Source of the DNA: a virus
Reading direction: 5' to 3' (one strand)
DNA length: 38,725 bases
Virus record (IMG/VR): IMGVR_UViG_3300031566_000161
Location: 1 to 38,725 of that record
Part shown: positions 2,004 to 23,786 of the stretch, one piece after another
Layout of the letters: every line of letters begins with the position of its first letter
Numbering within the stretch: position 1 is the first letter of the stretch
Notes under the pieces: model-generated
Databases searched by the model: none
What the model saw: the letters and a program-made list of their open reading frames with translations, nothing else
What the model was told of the DNA's origin: nothing
Translations under genes and position numbers: made by a program

Positions 2004-2032
2004 TTGACAAGCTGCAAACTATGCTGTACAAT
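2004..2032 (+). promoter_or_regulatory. Sigma70-type promoter, near consensus
   Basis: TTGACA at 2004-2009 and TACAAT at 2027-2032 are separated by exactly 17 bases. This is the clearest promoter in the window and is placed to drive the ParB/PAPS-reductase/transporter operon starting at 2105. The transcript would begin near 2039 and run at once into the hairpin at 2051-2083. Confidence 0.75.
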
Positions 2033-2050: not shown

Positions 2051-2087
2051 GCCCCGTCTACCCGGACGATGGGTGGGCGGGGCTTTT
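2051..2087 (+). terminator. Terminator-like hairpin in the operon leader (attenuator candidate)
   Basis: Arms at 2051-2063 (GCCCCGTCTACCC) and 2071-2083 (GGGTGGGCGGGGC) pair over 13 positions, two of them G-T, with a 7-base loop. Four T follow at 2084-2087 and an A-rich stretch precedes. It lies between the promoter and the first gene, so it could end upstream transcription, attenuate the operon, or require antitermination. The T tract is short, so efficiency may be partial. Confidence 0.6.
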
Positions 2088-2104: not shown

Positions 2105-2776
2105 ATGACTAAAGGCATCAAGGGCGTTGAAGATCTCAAACTAGATGAAGCGAACCCGCGAAGGCACAACCCCCGCAACGTAGGGCTGATCGTGGACGCG
2201 CTGCATGAGGTGGGTGCAGCCCGGAGCATCGTCATCGATGAGGACGGTAACGTGCTGGCCGGGAACGCCACCGTGGAGGCTGCCATGGAAGCGGGTATCC
2301 TCAAGGTGCGTGTGGTGGAGGCCAACGGTGAGGAGCTGGTGGCCGTGCGGCGCACGGGGTTGACGGGGGAACAGAAGAAGCGTTTGGCTTACTATGATAA
2401 CCGTACTGCAGAGTTGGCAGAGTGGGATGTGATCCGTATCGTTCAAGACCTGGATGAGGGCTTGAGTCTAACCGGTTTGTTCTATGAGGAGGAGTTACAA
2501 GACCTCCTGAAGGAAGAGGGCAAGAAGATCGGGGAGCTGGTGCGGCCAGACTTCCCTGACCTTGAAAAACAACCTGATGTCAAAGATGTCAAAGATATCA
2601 AGGATGAGAATTGGTTCTATGTGGAGTTCTATGGTGATGATGAGCGAATGAGGGAGATGACTGAACTGTTGAGCCCTCACTTGACAGGTCAAAGTAAGCA
2701 TGAGCTAGATCGTGATTTCTTCTACGCTATGATGAAACGGTGCGCAAGTGAGGTCGAGGGGACTGATGGCGAGTGA
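2105..2776 (+). CDS. ParB/sulfiredoxin-fold protein (IbrB-like), first copy
   Basis: ATG 2105 is chosen because AGGAG at 2096-2100 precedes it; the frame extends further upstream but through the leader hairpin. The 223-residue product has an N-terminal ParB-like domain: NPRRHNPRN around residues 17-25 and the IDEDGNVLAGN strand-turn around 44-54, equivalent to the nucleotide-binding box of ParB/Srx proteins. It is followed by a helical part with LTGEQKKRLAYYDNR (about 86-100), a pattern I associate with phage ParB-domain proteins. No ParB DNA-binding helix-turn-helix or partner ParA is present, so chromosome or plasmid partition is unlikely. Residues around 158-166 are a three-fold DVK repeat. 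The gene overlaps the PAPS-reductase gene by 11 bases, the same pairing as IbrB/IbrA. Biochemical role unknown. Confidence 0.75.
   Translation: MTKGIKGVEDLKLDEANPRRHNPRNVGLIVDALHEVGAARSIVIDEDGNVLAGNATVEAAMEAGILKVRVVEANGEELVAVRRTGLTGEQKKRLAYYDNRTAELAEWDVIRIVQDLDEGLSLTGLFYEEELQDLLKEEGKKIGELVRPDFPDLEKQPDVKDVKDIKDENWFYVEFYGDDERMREMTELLSPHLTGQSKHELDRDFFYAMMKRCASEVEGTDGE
2576..2602 (+). repeat. Three tandem 9-base repeats in the ParB-like gene
   Basis: GATGTCAAA occurs twice and then as GATATCAAG, encoding DVK-DVK-DIK. It forms a charged linker between the ParB-like core and the C-terminal segment and could vary in copy number by slippage without breaking the frame. Confidence 0.7.
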
Positions 2777-3923
2777 GGCGGCGGAGATAGCGAAGAAGGG
2801 CTGGCTGTCACATACTGGTTTCACGGTCATGCCCATCCACGGCGAGGATGTTTTCACTGCGGCGTTGCGGAGAGCAAGGGAGCTATTTGAGATGGATCAA
2901 CCCATAACGGTGGGGTTCAGTGGCGGTAAGGACAGCACATGCGTCTTGATGATTATGTTGATGGTGGCCCGAGAATTAGGGCGGCTCCCATTGGAAGTAG
3001 CGATGGTGGATGAGGAAGTTCTTGACCCGGACACCATCGCTTATTCGTTTGAAGTAGCCAAATGGCCTGACATCAATTTTCGCTGGTTATGTATCCCGAT
3101 CAAGCATACCCTCCGCTCACAGCTTCGCACTCATTGGTATACTTGGGATCCCGCTGAACGGGATAAGTGGGCCAGGGAGATACCGGAGGGGGCGATCACC
3201 CTGGATGACCTGCAGGGGTATGACAAGGAAGATACCGGCTATGGAGATGCGATAGCAGCGTACTACAGGCAGTACCACGATTGGCCCGTGAGAGTTCACG
3301 TCACTGGTATTCGAGTGGAGGAAAGTTTAAACAGGCGTAGAACTATCATGAACAGTGGATCGTGGTTGCACAAGCATTCCCATGAATGGTTAACGAAGCC
3401 TATTTATGATTGGAAGTGGCAAGATGTGTGGAAGTCCATCATTCAGAATGGTTGGCCACACTCAGTGTATTATGACAAGGTGTGGATGAAGGGTGTCTCC
3501 ATGAAAGATCAACGCATAGGTCCATGGGGCAACGTGGCCAGCAGCCGTGAGACCAGGTTTTACCCAGAGTTTTATCCTGATTTCTGGGCGAAGGCGATAG
3601 TGCGCCTGCCTGAGTTGAGGGCCATGGCCCGTTATGGAAGCACCAAGATGTATCGAGCAAGGGCGAATAAACCGGAGGGTATAACCTGGCGAGAGTTCTG
3701 TATGCAGATCCTTCAATCATTGGATGATGAGTCAAGGGTGTTTTGGCTTAATCAAATCGAAGGCTATTTACGTAGATGGAAGAATCGTACTACATTACCT
3801 TTCCCTGACGAACCAGTTAAAGTTGAAGGAGAAAAGACCTGGCAATCATCCTGGCGAACCCTTGCTGTTATTATTGATAAAAATGATAGATTCAAAGGTA
3901 GAATATCGAGGGACGTGTGGTGA
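2766..3923 (+). CDS. PAPS reductase-family protein (IbrA/DUF3440-like), first copy
   Basis: ATG 2766 overlaps the ParB-like stop and has GAGG upstream. The 385-residue product carries the N-type ATP-pyrophosphatase loop SGGKDS at residues 52-57, followed by the helix LMIMLMVARE and the acidic strand MVDEEVLDP. A later VTGIRVEESLNRRR segment matches the substrate or partner-binding arginine region of the family, and KPIYDWKWQDVW is the usual downstream motif. The C-terminal extension is long and aromatic/basic. There is no C-terminal ECGLH-type catalytic Cys motif, so canonical reduction of PAPS is unlikely. An ATP-dependent adenylation or sulfur/amine transfer role is more consistent with the family fold. 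It pairs with the upstream ParB-like gene as IbrA does with IbrB. The last 200 bases are visibly more A+T rich. Confidence 0.8.
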   Translation: MASEAAEIAKKGWLSHTGFTVMPIHGEDVFTAALRRARELFEMDQPITVGFSGGKDSTCVLMIMLMVARELGRLPLEVAMVDEEVLDPDTIAYSFEVAKWPDINFRWLCIPIKHTLRSQLRTHWYTWDPAERDKWAREIPEGAITLDDLQGYDKEDTGYGDAIAAYYRQYHDWPVRVHVTGIRVEESLNRRRTIMNSGSWLHKHSHEWLTKPIYDWKWQDVWKSIIQNGWPHSVYYDKVWMKGVSMKDQRIGPWGNVASSRETRFYPEFYPDFWAKAIVRLPELRAMARYGSTKMYRARANKPEGITWREFCMQILQSLDDESRVFWLNQIEGYLRRWKNRTTLPFPDEPVKVEGEKTWQSSWRTLAVIIDKNDRFKGRISRDVW

Positions 3924-4987
3924 TGGTTATGGAAGATCAGGCTGTCTCACAAATACAGCTTAATCAGTTGACAATTGAGTGGGTCCCATTGAAACAGGTG
4001 AGGCCCAATTCATACAACCCTAACAAAATGACCTTTCATGACAGGATGCTGTTGAGGCAATCGCTCCTGGAGGATGGTTGGACGCAGCCGATAGTGACCC
4101 TCAAGGACGGCGCGGTTATCGTGGATGGAGAGCAACGCTGGGCCGTCGCCGGGTTGGGGTTACACCCGTCTGATATTCAGGAAGTGATTGACAAGATGGA
4201 GTCACGCAAGGCTCAGGGTCACCCTGAGTCTAACAGCATCCTTGAGCGCCTGCATGACGCCAAGGCTAGATTAGAAGAAGCTATAACCGGGGGAGAGGAG
4301 TCAAACCTGGCCGCCATCACGGGGGGGCTGGTCCCTATCACCAGGTTGGACCTGGGGGATGAGGCCCACAAGGTCATCTCCACCATCAGGCACAACCGGG
4401 CGAGGGGCATACATCAGATAGACGCGATGGCGGGTTTGACACGTGACCTGGTAGAGTTGGGCCTTGACCTGGATGACCTGGAGATGCGCCTGGGGATGGA
4501 TGATGAGGAGATACGGCGCTTCCTCCAGCAGACAGAGGGGCAGATAGGTGATTTGATGGATGACCTTGAGGGTACAGATTATTCACAGGCTTGGGGTCCA
4601 GTCAAGGTAACGACGCTCACTGATAATGAGGTGCTGGCGAAGGAGATTGAGAGGTCACAGCAAGCGGCGGTGGAGGCAAAGGATTATCAACTCAAGCTGA
4701 AAGCGCGGAGGGATCAAATCAACGCTCAGGCTGCGCAGATCGTAACACAGCGAGAGGAGCATGGAGAGGTCTTAACACAGTCGGACAAGGATGATGTTGC
4801 TGCTCAAGTGGAGAAGTCTATTGACGCCCCAGAGCCGCCGCCGCCTATACAGGCGCGGAAGCTCGCGATTGTCATTGCCCCGGAGGAGCATGACATGATC
4901 ATGAGGCTCGTAGAGATCATGGGGGAGGGCGTGGCGACGACGGTGGTTGAGGCGTGCAAGGCAGAGTTGGAGCGGAGGGGCGGATGA
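3923..4987 (+). CDS. ParB-like nuclease-domain protein, second copy
   Basis: ATG 3923 shares its A with the preceding TGA, and GAGGGA at 3908-3913 is a good ribosome site. The 354-residue product has a ParB N-terminal domain: VPLKQVRPNSYNPNKM (about 21-36), SLLEDGWTQPIVTL, and the box DGAVIVDGEQRW (about 62-73), with a later RHNRARGIH segment (about 157-165) typical of ParB/Srx proteins. Residues 170-320 are acidic and helical, probably a coiled coil. A final segment (ARKLAIVIAPEEHD onward) looks like a small alpha/beta C-terminal domain. It is clearly different from the first ParB-like protein (longer, different box), so this is not a simple recent duplication. It overlaps the second PAPS-reductase gene by 4 bases (ATGA). 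Confidence 0.78.
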   Translation: MVMEDQAVSQIQLNQLTIEWVPLKQVRPNSYNPNKMTFHDRMLLRQSLLEDGWTQPIVTLKDGAVIVDGEQRWAVAGLGLHPSDIQEVIDKMESRKAQGHPESNSILERLHDAKARLEEAITGGEESNLAAITGGLVPITRLDLGDEAHKVISTIRHNRARGIHQIDAMAGLTRDLVELGLDLDDLEMRLGMDDEEIRRFLQQTEGQIGDLMDDLEGTDYSQAWGPVKVTTLTDNEVLAKEIERSQQAAVEAKDYQLKLKARRDQINAQAAQIVTQREEHGEVLTQSDKDDVAAQVEKSIDAPEPPPPIQARKLAIVIAPEEHDMIMRLVEIMGEGVATTVVEACKAELERRGG

Positions 4988-5754
4988 TTCCCAAGAAGCA
5001 AGTCAAGGACAATGAAGCGTTCAAGAGCGCCTGGCAGGGCATCGGTGACCTCATCCCGAGGGAGCGCGTTGATGCCTTGGTGGAGCAGACCGTTGAGGAG
5101 ATCAAGGCTTTCTCAATGGGCAAGACCGTTGGTTACGGGTGGAGCGGGGGCAAGGATAGTCAAGCCCTCCGGGGGGTGATGGAGGCGGCTGGAGTTAATC
5201 AGTGCGTGCTCGTGAGGACTGATCTTGAGTTCCCGGCTTTCATTCAGTGGATGAAGGAGAACACACCCACGGGGCTGCAGGTCATCAATACAGGGCAGGA
5301 CCTCCCCTGGCTGGTGAAGAATCTCGCCATGTTGTTTCCTCGTGATGCAAAGTTGGTAGCCAAGTGGTATAGGGTGGTGCAGCACAGGGGGCAGGAGCGA
5401 TTCTTTAAGGAGCAGGGTCTGGACCTGCTTGCCCTTGGCCGCCGTCACGCTGACGGCAACTATACAGGCAAGGATGGGGTCTATATCAACGCGCGCGGCA
5501 TCACTCGCTGGTCACCGATCCGGCACTGGACCCATGAGGAGGTACTGGCCTTTTGTCACTATCAAGACATGCCGCTACCGCCTATTTATGATTGGCCGCG
5601 GGGGTGGATTGTGGGCACCGGCCCTTGGGCAGCGAGGACGTATACCGAGGATGATGAGCAGGGCTGGAGTGAGACGTACATCATAGACCCCTCAGTCGTT
5701 GAGGGGGCTGCAGAGCATATCCCTTCCGCCAGGGAGTTCTTAGACAATCTATGA
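4984..5754 (+). CDS. PAPS reductase-family protein, second copy
   Basis: ATG 4984 is chosen for the ATGA overlap and the AGCGGAGGGG ribosome site just upstream; the frame itself opens earlier. The 256-residue product has SGGKDS at residues 54-59, then an acidic strand RTDLEFP, a GLDLLALGRRHADGN segment and the paired motifs SPIRHWTHEEVLAF and PLPPIYDWPRGW, all standard for the PAPS reductase/FAD synthetase superfamily. No ECG-type catalytic Cys is present at the C-terminus. It is much shorter than the first copy and close in length to the core family. Its stop overlaps the permease start by 4 bases, so the reductase-like and transport genes are translated as one unit. Confidence 0.8.
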   Translation: MIPKKQVKDNEAFKSAWQGIGDLIPRERVDALVEQTVEEIKAFSMGKTVGYGWSGGKDSQALRGVMEAAGVNQCVLVRTDLEFPAFIQWMKENTPTGLQVINTGQDLPWLVKNLAMLFPRDAKLVAKWYRVVQHRGQERFFKEQGLDLLALGRRHADGNYTGKDGVYINARGITRWSPIRHWTHEEVLAFCHYQDMPLPPIYDWPRGWIVGTGPWAARTYTEDDEQGWSETYIIDPSVVEGAAEHIPSAREFLDNL

Positions 5755-6581
5755 AGCGGGTATTGGGATTTGTTGGTCTAATTGTGGCGTGGGAGTTTGC
5801 GGTATGGAGTACGGATTCTGCTTTCTTGCCGTCAAGCGTAGAGGTCCTGAAAGCCTTAATAGAGCTGTTTGTCACGGGGGAGATATACAGGCACATCACG
5901 GCTTCCCTGCAGCACATCATGATAGGGTTCATGGTGGCTGCGGTGCTCGGTGGCTTCCTGGGCATACTGATCACGGAAAGCAAGGCCATGGACACGATCT
6001 TGACGCCGGTGATAGACGCGATGCGCCCGGTGGCGGCGCTGACGATCTTCCCCTTATTGATCGTGGTATTGGGGCTGGGTATGAAGAGCAAGGTATTCGT
6101 TATCTGCTGGACTGCGTGGCCAGCAATCTTGCTCAATACAGCTCATGCCATCAGAACGGTGGACCAGTCAGTGATCGAAGCCGCTATGCTGGATGGGGCC
6201 GGACGGTTGAGCCTCTTGCGTCACGTCAAGTTACCGCTGGGACTTCCGACGATTATGACGGGGCTGAGGATAGGGATGAGCGGGGGCTGGATCAGCCTAG
6301 TATCAGCGGAGATGTTAGGGGCAAGCGCCGGGTTAGGTTACAGTATCTTGGCGTACTCTCAGACCTTTCGCTTTGCGAAGATGTATAGCATAATAGTCAT
6401 CATTGCGCTTTTAGGCTTGATGATGAATGTGGCGCTGGCCTGGCTGCAGTCACGGTTGGATTATGACATGATAAGGGAGAAGAAAGATGAAGAGAGCAAG
6501 TTTCTACGTTTTCATGATCGGGCTGCTAGTTATGCTCTTGACAGTTTCAAGTGGCTGCGCAGCCCCAGAGCCCGAGGGTGA
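5751..6581 (+). CDS. ABC transporter permease, nitrate/sulfonate/taurine type
   Basis: The 276-residue product is a binding-protein-dependent inner-membrane permease (SsuC/TauC/ThiX-like). Hydrophobic segments are visible at about 3-19, 55-74, 94-110, 113-133, 178-200 and 212-232. The cytoplasmic EAA loop is intact: EAAMLDGAG at 143-151 followed by LPLGLP at 161-166, the site that docks the ATPase. The start overlaps the upstream stop (ATGA). The C-terminal 30 residues run in another frame through the signal peptide of the next gene, an overlap of 95 bases that is far longer than elsewhere in the window. No ATP-binding cassette gene lies nearby, so a host ATPase would be needed. The substrate cannot be read from the permease: sulfonates, taurine, nitrate, thiamine precursor and riboflavin systems all share this fold. 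Confidence 0.88.
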   Translation: MKRVLGFVGLIVAWEFAVWSTDSAFLPSSVEVLKALIELFVTGEIYRHITASLQHIMIGFMVAAVLGGFLGILITESKAMDTILTPVIDAMRPVAALTIFPLLIVVLGLGMKSKVFVICWTAWPAILLNTAHAIRTVDQSVIEAAMLDGAGRLSLLRHVKLPLGLPTIMTGLRIGMSGGWISLVSAEMLGASAGLGYSILAYSQTFRFAKMYSIIVIIALLGLMMNVALAWLQSRLDYDMIREKKDEESKFLRFHDRAASYALDSFKWLRSPRARG

Positions 6582-7476
6582 ATCAGCAGCACTCCCGGTG
6601 GTCAAGTACGTCAACTTCAAGGTGTATGACCCGGTCTATGTGGCCATAGAGAACGGCTACTTTGAGGACCATGGGATCGAGGTAAAGATCATTGGTGACG
6701 TGCTTGCGGGGCCTACAGGCATACAGGCGGTGGCCGGGGGCAGCGCTCACGCAGGGTTGTCTTCACTCCCGGCGATCATCAACGCCAATGCCAGTGGGTT
6801 ACCCATCATAGCCACCAGTGACATACAGTCTGCTATCGGTGATCAGCCGTTGGAGGTCTATTATGTCCGGTCTGACAGCGGCATCCGCTCAATTGAGGAC
6901 TTGCGGGGGAAGGTCGTACAGGTGAATCTGTGGCGGTCCAGCTTTCATTACACCATCTTGATGGCCCTGGATCAGCACGGGATGAGTGACAGTGAAATGA
7001 CGTTTGTCCTCATCAGCTTTGACCTTGCCTCTGAAACCCTCAAGAACGGTGAAGTGGACATGATCGGGCTGATGGAGCCTTATGCCAGCTACGCGGCTGA
7101 GACGTATGGTGATGAGTTTACGGTCCTGTTTGACGCCCTAGATATCTTCGGCGAGGCGCAGATATGCACTCACTTCATGAACAGGGTATGGGCTGAGGAT
7201 CACCCTGAGCAGGCGACGGCTTTTACTGATGGGATCGTTGACGCTATCCTGTGGATTCATGGTCACCAGGACGAGGCAAAGGTTATCATCGCCAAGTATA
7301 CCGGCATCCCTGAGCAGTACGTCCCTGAGTATTGGTTTCAAGAGAACGGGGTCGTGATCATGGAGGACGTGCAGATGTGGATGGACTTCATGCGTGAGCG
7401 GGGAGACCTGACGGCTGATTGGGTGACTGTTGACATGATAGCCACGAATGAGTACAACACCAGGGCAGCAGAATAG
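6487..7476 (+). CDS. Lipoprotein substrate-binding protein, NitT/TauT (NMT1/THI5-like) family
   Basis: The 329-residue product begins with a lipoprotein signal peptide: a basic start, a hydrophobic core at 6-20 and Cys24 in SSGC, followed by an Ala/Pro/Glu-rich linker. The mature part has the family pattern: DPVYVAIENGYFEDHGIEV near the N-terminus, an AVAGGSAHAGLSS pocket strand, SIEDLRGKVVQVN, and a DMIGLMEPYA hinge. It therefore captures a small molecule outside the membrane and hands it to the permease encoded just upstream. AAGAAAG-like purines (GGGAGAAGAAAG at 6475-6486) provide a ribosome site. Possible ligands are sulfonates or taurine, hydroxymethylpyrimidine or riboflavin. The neighbouring PAPS-reductase genes favour sulfur, but this is only context. 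Length and both lobes look complete. Confidence 0.87.
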   Translation: MKRASFYVFMIGLLVMLLTVSSGCAAPEPEGESAALPVVKYVNFKVYDPVYVAIENGYFEDHGIEVKIIGDVLAGPTGIQAVAGGSAHAGLSSLPAIINANASGLPIIATSDIQSAIGDQPLEVYYVRSDSGIRSIEDLRGKVVQVNLWRSSFHYTILMALDQHGMSDSEMTFVLISFDLASETLKNGEVDMIGLMEPYASYAAETYGDEFTVLFDALDIFGEAQICTHFMNRVWAEDHPEQATAFTDGIVDAILWIHGHQDEAKVIIAKYTGIPEQYVPEYWFQENGVVIMEDVQMWMDFMRERGDLTADWVTVDMIATNEYNTRAAE

Positions 7477-7527: not shown

Positions 7528-8001
7528 ATGGCTCTAAACACGAGTAAGTCTGCGATTTTAGATAAGCGCCGTAGGCGTGTGGCTGCCCTGCGTCTGCGGG
7601 GATTGACGCAGCGTGAGATCGTGAACGGCCTGAGTGAAGCGGATATGCTTAACCCTAAGACGGGGAGGCCTTATTCTGTAGCCACCGTGAATCATGATCT
7701 CAAGGTTATACAAGAGGGCTGGCGGGAAGAGGCTACGCAGGACATCGCAGAGCATGTAGCTCGAATCTTGGCGGAGCTTCATGAGGTCAAGAGGGCGGCA
7801 TGGTCTGAGAAGGCGTTTGGGGACATCCTGAGGGCCATCGAGAAGGAATGCAAGATACTCGGGATAGACAGCCCCGACAAGCAAATCATCATTGAGGGAG
7901 ATCTAGAGACGTTCCTGTCCAGGTTGCCGGAGGAGTACCAGGATGCAGTCCGGAAGCTCATTATCTCCGACTTTGTCGGAAGCGGCCCTGCGAGGGCTTG
8001 A
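7528..8001 (+). CDS. Probable small terminase subunit (HTH protein)
   Basis: The 157-residue product begins basic (LDKRRRRVAALRLRGLTQREIV), a helix-turn-helix-type sequence at about 13-60 that continues through YSVATVNHDLKVI. The middle is a helical, amphipathic segment suited to oligomer formation. The C-terminus (ETFLSRLPEEYQDAVRKLI) is a further helix. Position directly before the large terminase, a 59-base overlap with it and DNA-binding character fit the packaging-recognition subunit. Sequence identity to known TerS proteins cannot be shown by eye; a generic HTH regulator is the alternative. The gap before it (7477-7527) has no clear promoter or terminator. Confidence 0.65.
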   Translation: MALNTSKSAILDKRRRRVAALRLRGLTQREIVNGLSEADMLNPKTGRPYSVATVNHDLKVIQEGWREEATQDIAEHVARILAELHEVKRAAWSEKAFGDILRAIEKECKILGIDSPDKQIIIEGDLETFLSRLPEEYQDAVRKLIISDFVGSGPARA

Positions 8002-9550
8002 CCCCCAGGACTTTGCGCAGACCTTCATCAAGTCCATGGGTGACCCGTCTAAGGGCAGGCTCAAGGAGTGGGCCTTGCGCGGTACCCGGATCTCCGCGGG
8101 GGATTGGGGGGAACGGTATTTCTATATCGAGGACCCCTGCGAGGTAGAGACGGGGCGACTACTCACGCCGGGGCCGATAAGGCTGTTCCCCCTACAAAAG
8201 GCGCTACTCGAGTCTGCCCTGGAGATGGTGCCTGAGCTGGGGTTCCGTTGGCAGAGCATCGTCTACAGCGCCACCAAGAAGTCGGGCAAGTCCCGTATTG
8301 CGGCCATGGTGGATGCGTGGGTGGCGGATCAGATGGGGCCGTTTGCGGAAGTCTATCTGGCGGCCAACGATGGGAAGCAGTCGGGGGATAGGCTGCTGAA
8401 CTGCATTGCTCGGAGCATCGAGCTGAATCAGAAATTGGGGACCGGCCTCGTGATGACCCGGTGGAAGGACCGCAAGACCGCAATATCCTTGCCCAACGGC
8501 TCGGTCATCGAGGCCATCCCCGTAGACCCCACAGGGCAGGCAGGTGGTAACCCCGCCTGTGTTACGTTCTCGGAGCTTTGGGGATACCGGCTGGAGGACA
8601 AGCAGCGGCTCTGGGCGGCCCTCACGCTATCGCCCACGAAGCGGGGCATGTCCTTCCGGTGGGTGGACACCTATGCAGGTTATGAGGGTGAGAGCGAGAC
8701 CCTGGAGAACCTGTACGAGCAGGGCGTGAACCAGGGTCGCTACTGGGTGGACTGGGCAGATGAGAACCACATTGAGTATGACCCCCTTCTACGTGAGCTA
8801 GAGATACCCCTGTTCGTCAATGAGGCCTCGCGTCTGTGGTGTTACTGGGAGACCGAACCCCGGTTCCCTTGGCAGACCGAGGCATACTATCAGGAGCAGG
8901 CCGCGGCCCTCACGGACATGGAGTACCGCCGGGTGCACAAGAACGAGTGGGTCACTTCGGAGGATGTGTTCGTGCCTATCGAATGGTGGAAGGGGTGCGA
9001 GGCTGGCGAGTTCCCGCCCTTGCAGCCGGGCGAGCAGGTGGTCCTGGGTGTGGACGCGGCGGTAAGTGGTGACTCATTTGCGGTGGTGGGCGTTACGAGG
9101 CACCCTGCGGCCCCTAAGACCCACGTGGCGGTGCGTTACAGCCGGGTATGGTACCCGCCCAAGGGTGGCAAGCTGGACTTTGAGCCTATCGATCAGGAGA
9201 TAAGGCGCTTCTGTGCGGAGCATAATGTGGTGGAGGTAGCCTTTGACCACTGGCAGATGCATAAGATGGCCACGGACCAGGTCAAAGATTACGTGGCCCA
9301 CTGGCGCGAGTTCAGCCAGCAGGGGGAGCGCCTGGAGGCCGATGTGCAGTTGTACCAACTCATCCGGGCAAAAGAGGTGGTCCACGATGGGACCCACCAT
9401 GAGCTGACTCAGCACATCGCCAATGCCAACAGCAAGATGAGCAAGGAGGAGGAAACCAGGCTGCGGATCGTTAAGAGTAAGCGGGGCAAAATTGACGCCT
9501 GCGTAGCCCTCTCTATGGCGGCGCACCGGTGCTTGTACCTGAACCTGTGA
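7943..9550 (+). CDS. terL: Large terminase subunit
   Basis: ATG 7943 follows a strong GGAGGAG site at 7929-7935 inside the upstream gene. The 535-residue product has the ATPase Walker A-like SATKKSGKS at about 109-117, a coupling stretch with EVYLAANDGKQSGD, and a Walker B region ACVTFSELWGY at about 205-215. The C-terminal nuclease has LGVDAAVSGDS (first catalytic Asp near 370), VAFDHW (second, near 435) and KIDACVALSMA (third, near 517). This is the motor that cuts and pumps concatemeric phage DNA into proheads through the portal encoded at 12777. Length is normal for the family. Confidence 0.93.
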   Translation: MQSGSSLSPTLSEAALRGLDPQDFAQTFIKSMGDPSKGRLKEWALRGTRISAGDWGERYFYIEDPCEVETGRLLTPGPIRLFPLQKALLESALEMVPELGFRWQSIVYSATKKSGKSRIAAMVDAWVADQMGPFAEVYLAANDGKQSGDRLLNCIARSIELNQKLGTGLVMTRWKDRKTAISLPNGSVIEAIPVDPTGQAGGNPACVTFSELWGYRLEDKQRLWAALTLSPTKRGMSFRWVDTYAGYEGESETLENLYEQGVNQGRYWVDWADENHIEYDPLLRELEIPLFVNEASRLWCYWETEPRFPWQTEAYYQEQAAALTDMEYRRVHKNEWVTSEDVFVPIEWWKGCEAGEFPPLQPGEQVVLGVDAAVSGDSFAVVGVTRHPAAPKTHVAVRYSRVWYPPKGGKLDFEPIDQEIRRFCAEHNVVEVAFDHWQMHKMATDQVKDYVAHWREFSQQGERLEADVQLYQLIRAKEVVHDGTHHELTQHIANANSKMSKEEETRLRIVKSKRGKIDACVALSMAAHRCLYLNL

Positions 9551-21146: not shown

Positions 21147-23786
21147 ATGCGTGTCCAGATGGTGCCGGGGGAACGGTTTTTCCGTTCGCATGAAAGCGGC
21201 ATAAAAAGGGTCGTGGAGGCGTACTGCAAGCACCTGCCGGAATTCGGCATAGAGATAGTCACCGAGGACGTGAAGGACTACGATGTCAAGGCGGTGCACG
21301 CAGGGATGGCCCCGGATTGCGACGTGGCTCATCTGCATGGGCTTTACTGGACTTCTGATTACGAGGCCTCTGCTTGGGAGTGGAAGGCCAACAGCGGCGT
21401 GATCGGTAATCTCCGTGTGGCCAGGGAGGTCACGGTGCCCTCAGAGTGGGTGGCCATGACCATCAGGCGGGACATGCGCATTCAGCCCCACGTGGTGCCT
21501 CACGGCATTGAGTGGGATGAGTGGGCACATCACCACGAGAAGAGCGGCGGCTACGTGCTGTGGAATAAGAACCGGGATGCCGACGTATGTACGCCGTGGC
21601 CGATGGCGGACCTGGCCAAGACGGCGCCGGAAGTGAAGTTCATATCTACCTTTGCGCCACCCAATGCGCCCAGCAACGTGGAGGTCATCGGGTTGCAGCC
21701 CTACGAGGGCATGAAGCTGTTAGTACAGGGCGCGGGGGTCTACCTGAGCACGACCAAGGAGACATTTGGGATTGGCATCCTGGAGGCGATGGCGGCGGGG
21801 GTGCCTGTGCTGGGGTTTGCGTGGGGCAATATCGGGAACCTGGTGCACCACCAGGTCAACGGCTGGCTGTCTATGCCGGGGGACTTTGACCATCTGCGTG
21901 AGGGGTTGGAGTACTGTATACAGCACCGGGAGCGGCTGGGTGAGGCTGGCCGCGAGATGTCCAAGCATTACCGCTGGCGAGAGGTCTGCAAGCAGGTGGC
22001 GGGGGTCTATGAGCTGGCGGCGCGGGAGCATCTGGCGAACGTGGCGGTGATCATCCCCAGCCATAACTATGCGGACCGGGTGGGCCAGGCTATAGAAAGT
22101 GCCCTGGCACAGACCTACAAGGGCCTGACGAACGTAGTGGTGGTAGACGACGGGAGTGAGGACGACGGGGCCACAGGGCAGGTTGTGGCAAAGTATGAGG
22201 AGCAGGATAGCCGGGTGCGGTACATCAAGCAGCAGAATCAGGGCGTGGCTGTAGCGAGAAACAGGGGCATTGGCAGCGTCGATACGGAATATGTCTGCTG
22301 CTTGGATGCGGACGATGCCATAGCACCGGAGTTCCTGAGCAGGTGCATCAGCCCATTGGAGGAGGACCGGTCTTTGGGGCTATCATTCACGGGCCTGTGG
22401 GCGGTGACCCCGGACGGGAAGGCAGGTCAGTCCCAATGGCCTGACGGCTATGATTTCGAGCAGCAGTTGGCGCGGCGTAACCAGGTGCCCACGTGCTGCG
22501 TATTCCGCCGGGAGGCCTGGAAGCGACTGGGCGGGTACCGGAAGAGGTACTGCCCAAACGGCGCGGGTAGCGAGGATGCGGAGTTCTGGACTCGGATGGG
22601 GGCTTACGGCTGGGGTGCGGTACAGGCCACCAAGGAGCCGCTGTTCATGTACGCCTTGGGCACAGGCCACGTGACGGCGCTCCTCAAGGAAGGCAACTAT
22701 CAAGAGCCGGACTGGCTGGCCTGGCACCCCTGGGTTCAGGATAGGCAGTTTCCTCTTGCTTGTCTGGCGGAGCCGAAGCGGTTCAGTCATCCGGTGCGGG
22801 CTTATGACACGCCGTGGGTGAGCGTGATCGTGCCTGTGGGTCCGGGCCATGAGGAGATCGTGGTTGACGCCCTGGACAGCCTGGAGGCGCAAACCTTCCG
22901 GCAGTGGGAGTGCGTGCTGGTGAATGATACGGGGCAGCCCCTACCTGAGCAGCTATTGAGGGCATACCCCTACGTGACACTGGTGGAGACGCCGGGGAAC
23001 AAGGGCGCGGGTTATGCACGGAACAGGGGCGTGGAGGTAGCGAGGTCTCCCTTGCTCACCTTCCTGGATGCAGACGATTACATGCAGCCGGAGTTCCTGC
23101 GGGTATGCGTGGAGACTAGGTTGCAGACTGGCAGTTGGATCTACACTGATTTGTGGTCGGCATGGCCCAACGGTGAGGTCCACGAGTATCAGGTGGACGA
23201 CTTCGACGTGACCAGCTTGTGGCAGGACGGCTTGGGGGCGGTAACAGTGATTATTGACCAGGCCGAGTTTCAGGCCGTGGGCGGCTTCGACGAGGAGCTG
23301 GACACGCGGGAGGATTGGGATTTTCAGTTCAAGCTAGCCATGGCGGGCTTTTGCGGTGTGCGTGTGCCTCAGCCCTTGGTGACCTACCGCCTCGCTACGG
23401 GGGAGCGCAGGGAGAAACAGGCTAGTGATACCGCGGCCATGCTGAGGGAGAAATATGACCTGGAGGGCTTAAAGGTGGCGTGCAAACCATGTTCACAGAA
23501 TGCCAGGGTTATGAGTACCGTGTTGCCGCAGAGCTGGAGCACCAAGGAGGAGGAGGGGTTCGTACAGTTGAAGTACGTGGGCAAGAACCGGGCCACCTCT
23601 ACGTTCAAGGGCGTTTCAGGGCGCAATTACCGATTCGGGAACAACGACGATGCGCGGATTGCCTGGGTGCATCCAGAGGATGCTATCAACCTCGTAGACG
23701 TAAAGCATCAGCCATTTGAGCGCGTGCAAGCGTTGACCCAGACGCAGGGCCTGCCTACGGCGCTAATGGCCCCGGTTTCAGGATAA
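21147..23786 (+). CDS. Tri-modular glycosyltransferase (GT4-GT2-GT2) with C-terminal phage-type domain
   Basis: The 879-residue product has three catalytic modules. Residues 1-290 are GT4/GT-B-like: VPSEWVAM, VVPHGIEWDEW, and the ETFGIGILEAMAAG donor-site motif at about 205-218. Residues 298-545 are GT2/GT-A: VAVIIPSHNY, VVVDDGSEDD, the DXD motif in LDADDA near 386. Residues 557-790 are a second GT2: VSVIVPVGPG, NDTG, LDADDY near 640, and REDWDFQFKLAMAG. A final small beta-rich domain (about 804-852, with VQLKYVGKNRATSTF and YRFGNNDDARI) follows. It is between capsid and head-tail genes, so it may glycosylate virion proteins, or modify host glycans. AAAGGAG precedes the ATG. All three active sites look intact. 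Confidence 0.9.
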   Translation: MRVQMVPGERFFRSHESGIKRVVEAYCKHLPEFGIEIVTEDVKDYDVKAVHAGMAPDCDVAHLHGLYWTSDYEASAWEWKANSGVIGNLRVAREVTVPSEWVAMTIRRDMRIQPHVVPHGIEWDEWAHHHEKSGGYVLWNKNRDADVCTPWPMADLAKTAPEVKFISTFAPPNAPSNVEVIGLQPYEGMKLLVQGAGVYLSTTKETFGIGILEAMAAGVPVLGFAWGNIGNLVHHQVNGWLSMPGDFDHLREGLEYCIQHRERLGEAGREMSKHYRWREVCKQVAGVYELAAREHLANVAVIIPSHNYADRVGQAIESALAQTYKGLTNVVVVDDGSEDDGATGQVVAKYEEQDSRVRYIKQQNQGVAVARNRGIGSVDTEYVCCLDADDAIAPEFLSRCISPLEEDRSLGLSFTGLWAVTPDGKAGQSQWPDGYDFEQQLARRNQVPTCCVFRREAWKRLGGYRKRYCPNGAGSEDAEFWTRMGAYGWGAVQATKEPLFMYALGTGHVTALLKEGNYQEPDWLAWHPWVQDRQFPLACLAEPKRFSHPVRAYDTPWVSVIVPVGPGHEEIVVDALDSLEAQTFRQWECVLVNDTGQPLPEQLLRAYPYVTLVETPGNKGAGYARNRGVEVARSPLLTFLDADDYMQPEFLRVCVETRLQTGSWIYTDLWSAWPNGEVHEYQVDDFDVTSLWQDGLGAVTVIIDQAEFQAVGGFDEELDTREDWDFQFKLAMAGFCGVRVPQPLVTYRLATGERREKQASDTAAMLREKYDLEGLKVACKPCSQNARVMSTVLPQSWSTKEEEGFVQLKYVGKNRATSTFKGVSGRNYRFGNNDDARIAWVHPEDAINLVDVKHQPFERVQALTQTQGLPTALMAPVSG

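Follow-up and report, generated by a model that had tools for sequence, protein, structure and literature searches.

IbrA and IbrB share PP-loop, DUF3440 and ParB motifs with the locus described here, and their only known role is to co-activate the expression of prophage genes. Dnd/Ssp phosphorothioation also employs an ATP pyrophosphatase of the PAPS-reductase family with a ParB-superfamily partner (DndB) and, as described, contains no transporter, while in the Gat-QueC/archaeosine and phage dpd systems a class-II amidotransferase is teamed with a PP-loop enzyme whose substrate is a base. Some 7-deazaguanine phages additionally carry the precursor transporter YhhQ, whose presence does not correlate with phage group (PMC6884629). 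Among uptake systems, SsuABC, TauABC and RibXY contain permeases and binding proteins of the families found here, and RibXY, which consists of these two components only, is functional in E. coli (PMC4418817).

Here, we analyzed a viral sequence of 38,725 nucleotides (IMG/VR record IMGVR_UViG_3300031566_000161; hereafter, the window), which carries a phage cassette that is widespread but as yet undescribed, here in its ABC-importer form. Its PAPS1 and ParB2 proteins are homologous to IbrA and IbrB and are likewise encoded by adjacent genes; unlike IbrA/IbrB, however, the cassette contains two further core proteins, one PP-loop and one ParB-like, as well as a supply module. In contrast to YhhQ in the 7-deazaguanine phages, the cassette transporter is nearly obligatory, and the PP-loop proteins belong to a different family from those of Gat-QueC and dpd; no DpdA transglycosylase was among the Pfam matches of the subset of window ORFs scanned. 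The same subset, on a contig that is possibly a fragment, gave no Pfam match to the desulfurase DndA, DndD or DndE, and the match to the DndC model is far under the cut-off (25.7 vs 290.4 bits). The permease and binding protein are of the SsuABC/TauABC/RibXY families but are coupled to PP-loop/ParB genes and lack an ATPase in three contigs. Related cassettes carry a Pfam SSF symporter, as in the DUR3/PanF/PutP-like transporters, with DUR3 being the nearest solved relative by sequence; this symporter falls under all equivalog cut-offs and is absent from the window.

The cassette in the window is arranged as a six-gene operon (Table 1). As the initial annotation had proposed, the six ORFs lie in the stated order on the plus strand, all junctions overlap (by 11, 1, 4, 4 and 95 bases, in gene order), and the terminase genes follow directly, separated from the binding-protein gene by 51 bases. 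ParB1 starts with ATG, just downstream of an AGGAG sequence. The single strong promoter claimed in front of the operon does correspond to a consensus-like site, but the terminator-like hairpin between this site and the first start codon had been overlooked. Neither a tRNA gene nor a riboswitch was found in the window.

Table 1 Features of the operon, its leader and the adjoining terminase genes in the window.
Feature	Position	Strand	Assignment	Evidence
Promoter	2004..2032	+	Sigma-70-like, TTGACA-17-TACAAT	Consensus scan, 11/12; pattern match only
Hairpin	2051..2083	+	Terminator-like, 14 bp, with T tract; possible attenuator	Sequence pattern
ParB1	2105..2776	+	ParB/Srx-like; GN motif replaces xHR	phrog_620 5.8e-22; phrog_498 9.3e-22
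PAPS1	2766..3923	+	PP-loop ATP pyrophosphatase with DUF3440, IbrA-like	Pfam; phrog_2302 7e-66; residues; model; fold match
ParB2	3923..4987	+	ParB/Srx-like, IbrB-like	phrog_2159 2.8e-41; conserved columns
PAPS2	4984..5754	+	Second PP-loop ATP pyrophosphatase; cassette marker gene	Pfam PAPS_reduct
Permease	5751..6581	+	ABC importer permease (SsuC/TauC/SaoP-like); supply module	BPD_transp_1 5e-24; NCBIfam
Binding protein	6487..7476	+	Substrate-binding lipoprotein (NMT1/SsuA-like); supply module	Pfam NMT1 1.2e-26
Small-terminase-like gene	7528..8001	+	Context	Position before TerL
TerL	7943..9550	+	Terminase large subunit; context	TerL_nuclease 2.1e-11; phrog_9 4.5e-39

The SGGKDS PP-loop motif is intact in both PAPS1 and PAPS2, and PAPS1 contains the Pfam domains PAPS_reduct and DUF3440. 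The ECG(L/I)H motif, which harbors the C-terminal catalytic cysteine of PAPS reductases, is absent from both proteins, and their identity as true PAPS reductases was therefore rejected. The NCBIfam cysH model also scored far under its cut-off. The predicted structure of PAPS1 (pLDDT 83.5) best matches the PAPS-like domain of FAD synthase (Z 16.2), an adenylyltransferase, followed by ATP sulfurylase (Z 14.0), TilS (11.7) and GMP synthetase/NadE (~10.5); TilS and the tRNA thiolase NcsA are further matches of PAPS1 in profile and fold. PAPS2 is nearly confined to phages: among 398 genomes of one phylum it is present in 2, and the centre genome is one of these. ParB1 and ParB2 were detected through PHROGs only (620/498 and 2159, respectively). 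ParB2 carries the motifs DGEQR and RHNRARG, and ParB1 matches the ParB1 proteins of two further loci (L195 and L202) at 53%. PAPS1, a DUF3440 PP-loop protein, adjoins a ParB-like gene and thus forms an IbrA/IbrB-type pair.

In the permease, the EAA docking loop (EAAMLDGAGRLSLLRHVKLP) is intact, as are the EAA loops of the ABC versions as a group, and the binding protein has an SSGC lipobox; a BPD_transp_1 permease with this loop and an NMT1/SsuA-type binding lipoprotein together identify an ABC importer. NCBIfam places the two proteins in the SsuC/TauC and SsuA families, with all equivalog cut-offs missed. Their counterparts in two independent contigs, L094 and L204, match at 40% and 35% for the permease and at 45–48% for the binding protein, which falls in a phage-specific clade and whose best match among 249 genomes of one phylum is 32%. 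No ABC ATPase (PF00005) was found in the window or in the L094 and L204 records, which may be incomplete; since the EAA loop is nevertheless kept, the ABC versions probably borrow an ATPase from the host. A weak model of the binding protein (pLDDT 63) matched binders of sulfonate, nitrate, bicarbonate, pyrimidine, PQQ and thiamin about equally, and ligand assignment from this structure was dropped because of the model quality and the tied matches. Among cellular relatives of the binding protein, one (L206) is encoded beside a gene for a PLP enzyme, assigned by eye to the MetB/MetC type, and no riboswitches were detected near these relatives (L206-208).

The four-gene core, comprising two PP-loop ATP-pyrophosphatase genes and two ParB-like genes, recurs with mostly overlapping junctions in more than 100 viral or prophage loci. 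When the binding protein, permease, PAPS2 and PAPS1 of the window were used as single queries against viral contigs, no relatives were returned; alignments based on the faecal phage MT836198 did retrieve them. The exact order SSF-PAPS2-ParB1-PAPS1-ParB2 is found in 77 of the 123 non-redundant loci, and the same symporter arrangement without PAPS2 in 16. Because sequences of the symporter and window types served as search seeds, the proportions among loci, here and below, are biased. The set of genes seen in the window is also present in L094 and L204, and chance grouping, chimera or misassembly of the window was rejected on this ground. Core genes without a supply module occur in L195, L202, L183 and L172, and in other phages (L003-L005) PAPS1/ParB2-type pairs lack a transporter. 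The cassette is usually located directly upstream of the terminase, which belongs to at least three Pfam families (in 48 loci: Terminase_6N 16, GpA 8, Terminase_3 6), and it is also carried by prophages. Mycobacteriophage Giles, considered as a cultured carrier on the basis of co-occurring words (PMC5705681), was a false lead, as the words concern host proteins. The initial annotation had treated the genes as one unit that couples solute uptake to PP-loop/ParB chemistry. Both points are borne out by related phages, in which the same core is repeatedly linked to a transporter, often of another family, rather than occurring as single genes in unrelated places. The layout had also been regarded as undescribed in phages, and no prior description of the cassette was found in the open-access literature, the searchable part.

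We next compared supply modules across 106 non-redundant loci with adequate flanks. A transporter is present in 93 of them, comprising 77 SSF symporters, 13 short membrane proteins distantly related to SSF, and 3 ABC permease and binding-protein pairs (window included). In nine loci the module is instead a class-II glutamine amidotransferase, accompanied as a rule by a cupin; transporter and amidotransferase never co-occur, and four loci have neither. The exclusivity test gave p = 2e-10, a value that overstates independence because the loci are related and the tree gives only about three exchanges. On the PAPS2 tree, transporter and amidotransferase were exchanged through at least three changes, and the ABC version occupies three separate positions (three changes, two of them forced by well-supported branches). 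The replacement is most direct in isolate prophages (L190-193), where the order ParB1-PAPS1-ParB2-PAPS2-amidotransferase-cupin-terminase equals that of the window with the amidotransferase and cupin in place of the permease and binding protein; this type had no match in plasmids, and MT836198 was its only match in the phage collection. The N-terminal Cys of the amidotransferase is kept in 9 of 10 sequences, and no amidotransferase was found elsewhere in the window, L094 or L204. In L110, L153 and L176, an extra secreted protein, by eye an outer-membrane beta-barrel, is encoded between the symporter and PAPS2, which would fit the need for uptake across two membranes. These loci almost certainly represent a single conserved cassette whose supply module can be exchanged.

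The pairing of one core with an importer or with an enzyme that supplies ammonia, but never with both, suggests that a small molecule is acquired by the phage and then attached to a target, possibly the phage DNA itself; the amidotransferase alternative hints at nitrogen. We propose a mechanism in which a nucleophile, in the simplest case an amine or ammonia, comes from the importer or the amidotransferase; the ABC version would use a host ATPase. One or both PP-loop enzymes would adenylate a carbonyl, carboxyl or phosphate group with ATP, to which the imported or locally made nucleophile would then be joined, in the manner of TilS, GMP synthetase and Gat-QueC. The ParB-like partners may bind DNA or nucleotides, and may guide the modification step or provide its energy. 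The product would most likely be a modified base in phage DNA, or a nucleotide precursor, made before packaging, and such a base could protect against host nucleases. The subset of window ORFs scanned contained neither a known base-transferring enzyme nor a hydroxymethyl-pyrimidine pathway. We consider it nearly an even chance that the cassette serves nucleic-acid or nucleotide modification. More tentatively, it may represent a new kind of system, in which a phage importer scavenges the chemical group used by the core from outside the cell, local glutamine amidotransfer is the exact alternative route, and the resulting novel nucleic-acid modification depends on the environment of the host. It is similarly tentative that this importer takes the form of a symporter, an ABC importer with a host ATPase or, in Gram-negative hosts, a symporter with an outer-membrane channel.

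The initial annotation instead favored a sulfur compound and host sulfur metabolism. An auxiliary metabolic island, importing a sulfur (or nitrogen) compound for assimilation by PP-loop enzymes on behalf of an infected or lysogenic host, would account for the SsuC/TauC and SsuA families, the PAPS_reduct domains and the PHROG labels; temperate hosts exist, the L206 relative lies beside a gene read by eye as MetB/MetC-type, and phrog_424/2302 are classed as host metabolism by prophage annotators (PMC11318856). We nonetheless regard it as unlikely, because it explains neither the pairing with ParB-like proteins nor the location upstream of the terminase. Its sulfur form is not supported: the ECG motif is missing, the PAPS1 fold is FAD-synthase-like, the tied matches of the weak binding-protein model do not favor sulfonates, and replacement of the transporter by an amidotransferase is not sulfur chemistry. 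Modification of tRNA or another RNA with the supplied nucleophile is equally unlikely. PP-loop enzymes commonly modify tRNA, and PAPS1 matches TilS and NcsA in profile and fold; however, the ParB-like partners and the pre-terminase position point to DNA, and the window contains no tRNA gene.

Slightly less probable than either is defence or superinfection exclusion, in which the core would act as an effector on nucleotides or DNA to counter rival phages, and the membrane module would be a sensor or gate. Prophages do carry the genes, and ParB-superfamily NTPase/nuclease activities and DndB-like roles have been discussed for effectors (PMC10853773, PMC12839542). PADLOC, however, returned no system match, only weak DndC and methyltransferase-ParB matches; the cotranscribed operon before the terminase suggests lytic expression, and a transporter and an amidotransferase as interchangeable sensors would be strained. 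Least probable, by a small margin, is IbrA/IbrB-like control of prophage or host gene expression with the imported solute as the signal. The resemblance of PAPS1/ParB2 to the annotated co-activators and the hairpin in the leader agree with such control, yet the presence of two PP-loop enzymes, both intact, and of an amidotransferase as the substitute module argues for catalysis, and the mechanism of IbrAB is itself not established.

These findings carry a warning for virome annotation. PHROG 424 and 2302 are labeled phosphoadenosine phosphosulfate reductases and filed as auxiliary metabolic genes, whereas proteins of this type in the window lack the reductase motif and belong to a different kind of system. 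The mutual exclusion of importer and amidotransferase offers a direct chemical hint, a transferable nucleophile, and cultured lysogens, among them Agathobaculum desmolans ATCC 43058, make this hint testable. If the proposed mechanism is true, phages would couple nutrient uptake to nucleic-acid or nucleotide modification, and the modification status of a phage would depend on a compound in its environment.

The six ORFs of the operon and their order are as the initial annotation stated, as are the junction overlaps (11, 1, 4, 4 and 95 bases, with gene starts taken as longest-ORF starts), the promoter-like site in front and the terminase genes, which start 51 bases downstream of the binding-protein gene. 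Families were assigned with Pfam, PHROGs and NCBIfam, and both ParB-type genes matched ParB-like PHROGs. In codon usage, the two transporter genes resemble their ParB and PAPS2 neighbors, and PAPS1 is the most deviant gene. The strong terminator-like hairpin upstream of ParB1 may attenuate the operon. Full-text searches of open-access papers for the cassette's families in combination returned no description of the cassette, in agreement with the earlier statement that no described phage system was known with this exact layout. IbrAB pairs appear in phage annotations, and genes of phrog_424/2302, classed as host metabolism, occur in prophages of Clostridium clostridioforme (PMC11318856).

Features of the window and of related loci (L-numbers) in other viral, prophage or genome records
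Locus	Position	Feature	Remark
Window	2004-2032	Promoter-like site	
Window	2051-2083	Terminator-like hairpin, 14 pairs	Between promoter-like site and ParB1 start codon; absent from initial annotation
Window	2105-2776	ParB1	
Window	2766-3923	PAPS1	PAPS_reduct + DUF3440
Window	3923-4987	ParB2	Long extension beyond ParB-like part, exceeding gut-phage versions
Window	4984-5754	PAPS2	PAPS_reduct
Window	5751-6581	Permease	BPD_transp_1
Window	6487-7476	Binding protein	NMT1/SsuA-like
Window	21147-23786	879-residue protein, Glycos_transf_2 twice + Glycos_transf_1	Among tail-region genes
L110	7378-7989	Secreted, barrel-like protein	Between symporter and PAPS2
L153	7334-7984	Secreted, barrel-like protein	Between symporter and PAPS2
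L176	2107-2721	Secreted, barrel-like protein	Between symporter and PAPS2
L166	4270-4686, 7986-8627	PAPS2 split by ~3.3 kb inserted DNA	Eubacterium plexicaudatum prophage
L172	6181-6975	Lone PAPS2 relative without core partners	Atribacteria genome
L186	9229-12134	Two PAPS1-type ORFs, tandem	Amidotransferase-type cassette
L202	9628-10170	SET-domain-like protein (by eye) adjoining core	Locus without supply module

Single-sequence scans of IMG/VR with PAPS1, PAPS2, permease and binding protein of the window retrieved no relatives. A tblastn search of named phage records with the window PAPS2 gave one match (48%), the faecal phage contig MT836198, in which a sodium:solute symporter (SSF) gene overlaps the 5' side of PAPS2 and a ParB gene its 3' side, with PAPS1 and ParB2 next. 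Scanning with this symporter yielded 80 loci, with core genes (PAPS2, ParB1, PAPS1, ParB2) adjoining it wherever flank sufficed; a PAPS2 alignment yielded 80 viral and 17 genome loci and a window-type PAPS2 alignment 37, locus proportions being biased by the query sequences. Most hosts that genome records name are Clostridia, Agathobaculum desmolans and Eubacterium plexicaudatum among them. Collapsing loci with identical PAPS1 C-termini left 123 non-redundant ones, of which 77 have the order SSF-PAPS2-ParB1-PAPS1-ParB2 and 16 the order SSF-ParB1-PAPS1-ParB2, with PAPS2 absent; the ParB1-PAPS1 and PAPS1-ParB2 junctions overlap or lie ≤60 bases apart in 99% of cases. The core genes recur linked, and the permease and binding protein recur with them in L094 and L204. 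PAPS2 is nearly confined to phages: a search of 398 genomes from a single phylum found it in 2, including the centre genome itself. In a set of 48 diverse loci, the large ORF that follows the cassette matched Terminase_6N (16), GpA (8) or Terminase_3 (6), other large ORFs there giving only an AAA_19 match; terminases downstream of the same cassette therefore belong to at least three Pfam families.

The supply module beside the core is exchangeable. In 106 non-redundant PAPS2 loci with ≥1.7 kb flank on each side, it is an SSF symporter alone (74), a symporter with the secreted barrel-like protein (3), a membrane protein of ~330 residues that is a remote SSF relative (13; hhalign probability 92.9%, E 3.7e-7), an ABC permease with a binding protein (3: window, L094, L204), a class-II glutamine amidotransferase with transporter absent (9), or neither (4). 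Transporter and amidotransferase never occur together (0/106; Fisher's p 2e-10, from loci related to one another). On a 58-row PAPS2 tree, the five supply states require 13 changes; scored as transporter versus amidotransferase, at least three are required; and the ABC state has three origins, at least two forced by well-supported branches. Among themselves, the three phage binding proteins are 45-54% alike; the closest match in 249 genomes from one bacterial phylum reaches 32%. The ABC module thus looks like a phage-specific unit moved between cores. The secreted protein had no Pfam match above cut-off, its outer-membrane beta-barrel look being judged by eye; its three loci, with ParB2 and PAPS1 swapped in order, probably belong, by our own assignment, to phages of Gram-negative hosts.

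No ABC ATPase was found in the window, L094 or L204 contigs. All three may be incomplete genomes, with further genes, an ATPase among them, perhaps missing from the contigs. Borrowing of a host ATPase is plausible, since EAA loops are intact in these permeases and a RibXY clone with permease and binding protein alone was enough to restore riboflavin uptake in E. coli (PMC4418817).

Prophages L190-193 (ParB1-PAPS1-ParB2-PAPS2-GAT-cupin-terminase, the terminase identified by eye) share the window's gene order, with amidotransferase (GAT) and cupin replacing permease and binding protein. A cupin occurs with the amidotransferase in these loci, L157, L178 and L187 (BLAST) and in L186 (by eye); in L188, Pfam found one among the ORFs scanned. 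The N-terminal cysteine is retained in 9/10 amidotransferases and the HNG motif in most, so that release of ammonia can be expected from their sequences.

PP-loop enzymes, among them TilS, GMP synthetase and NAD synthetase, activate a carbonyl or phosphate group by adenylation and so open it to attack by a nucleophile. The predicted PAPS1 structure (pLDDT 83.5) has its closest fold match in FAD synthase (PAPS-like domain, Z 16.2), followed by APS reductase and ATP sulfurylase (14.0), TilS (11.7) and, lower, GMP synthetase/NadE (about 10.5). By residue check, PAPS1 and PAPS2 lack the PAPS-reductase ECG motif. Among cysteines common in the PAPS2 family, the window retains only C74 (65% of members), and its PAPS1 retains C109 (95%); in structural matches to the binding protein, sulfonate, nitrate, bicarbonate, pyrimidine, PQQ and thiamin binders score about equally. 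The cysteines and these matches give no positive evidence for the sulfur role initially suggested, though sulfur may still be involved.

A transporter substituting for the amidotransferase could bring in a nucleophile. The nearest described analogue is Gat-QueC, in which a base-modifying PP-loop enzyme carries a fused class-II amidotransferase, and some phages encode the precursor transporter YhhQ (PMC6884629). Given that ParB-like proteins partner the PP-loop enzymes and that the cassette lies ahead of the terminase, we infer that the PP-loop chemistry of the cassette would end in modified DNA.
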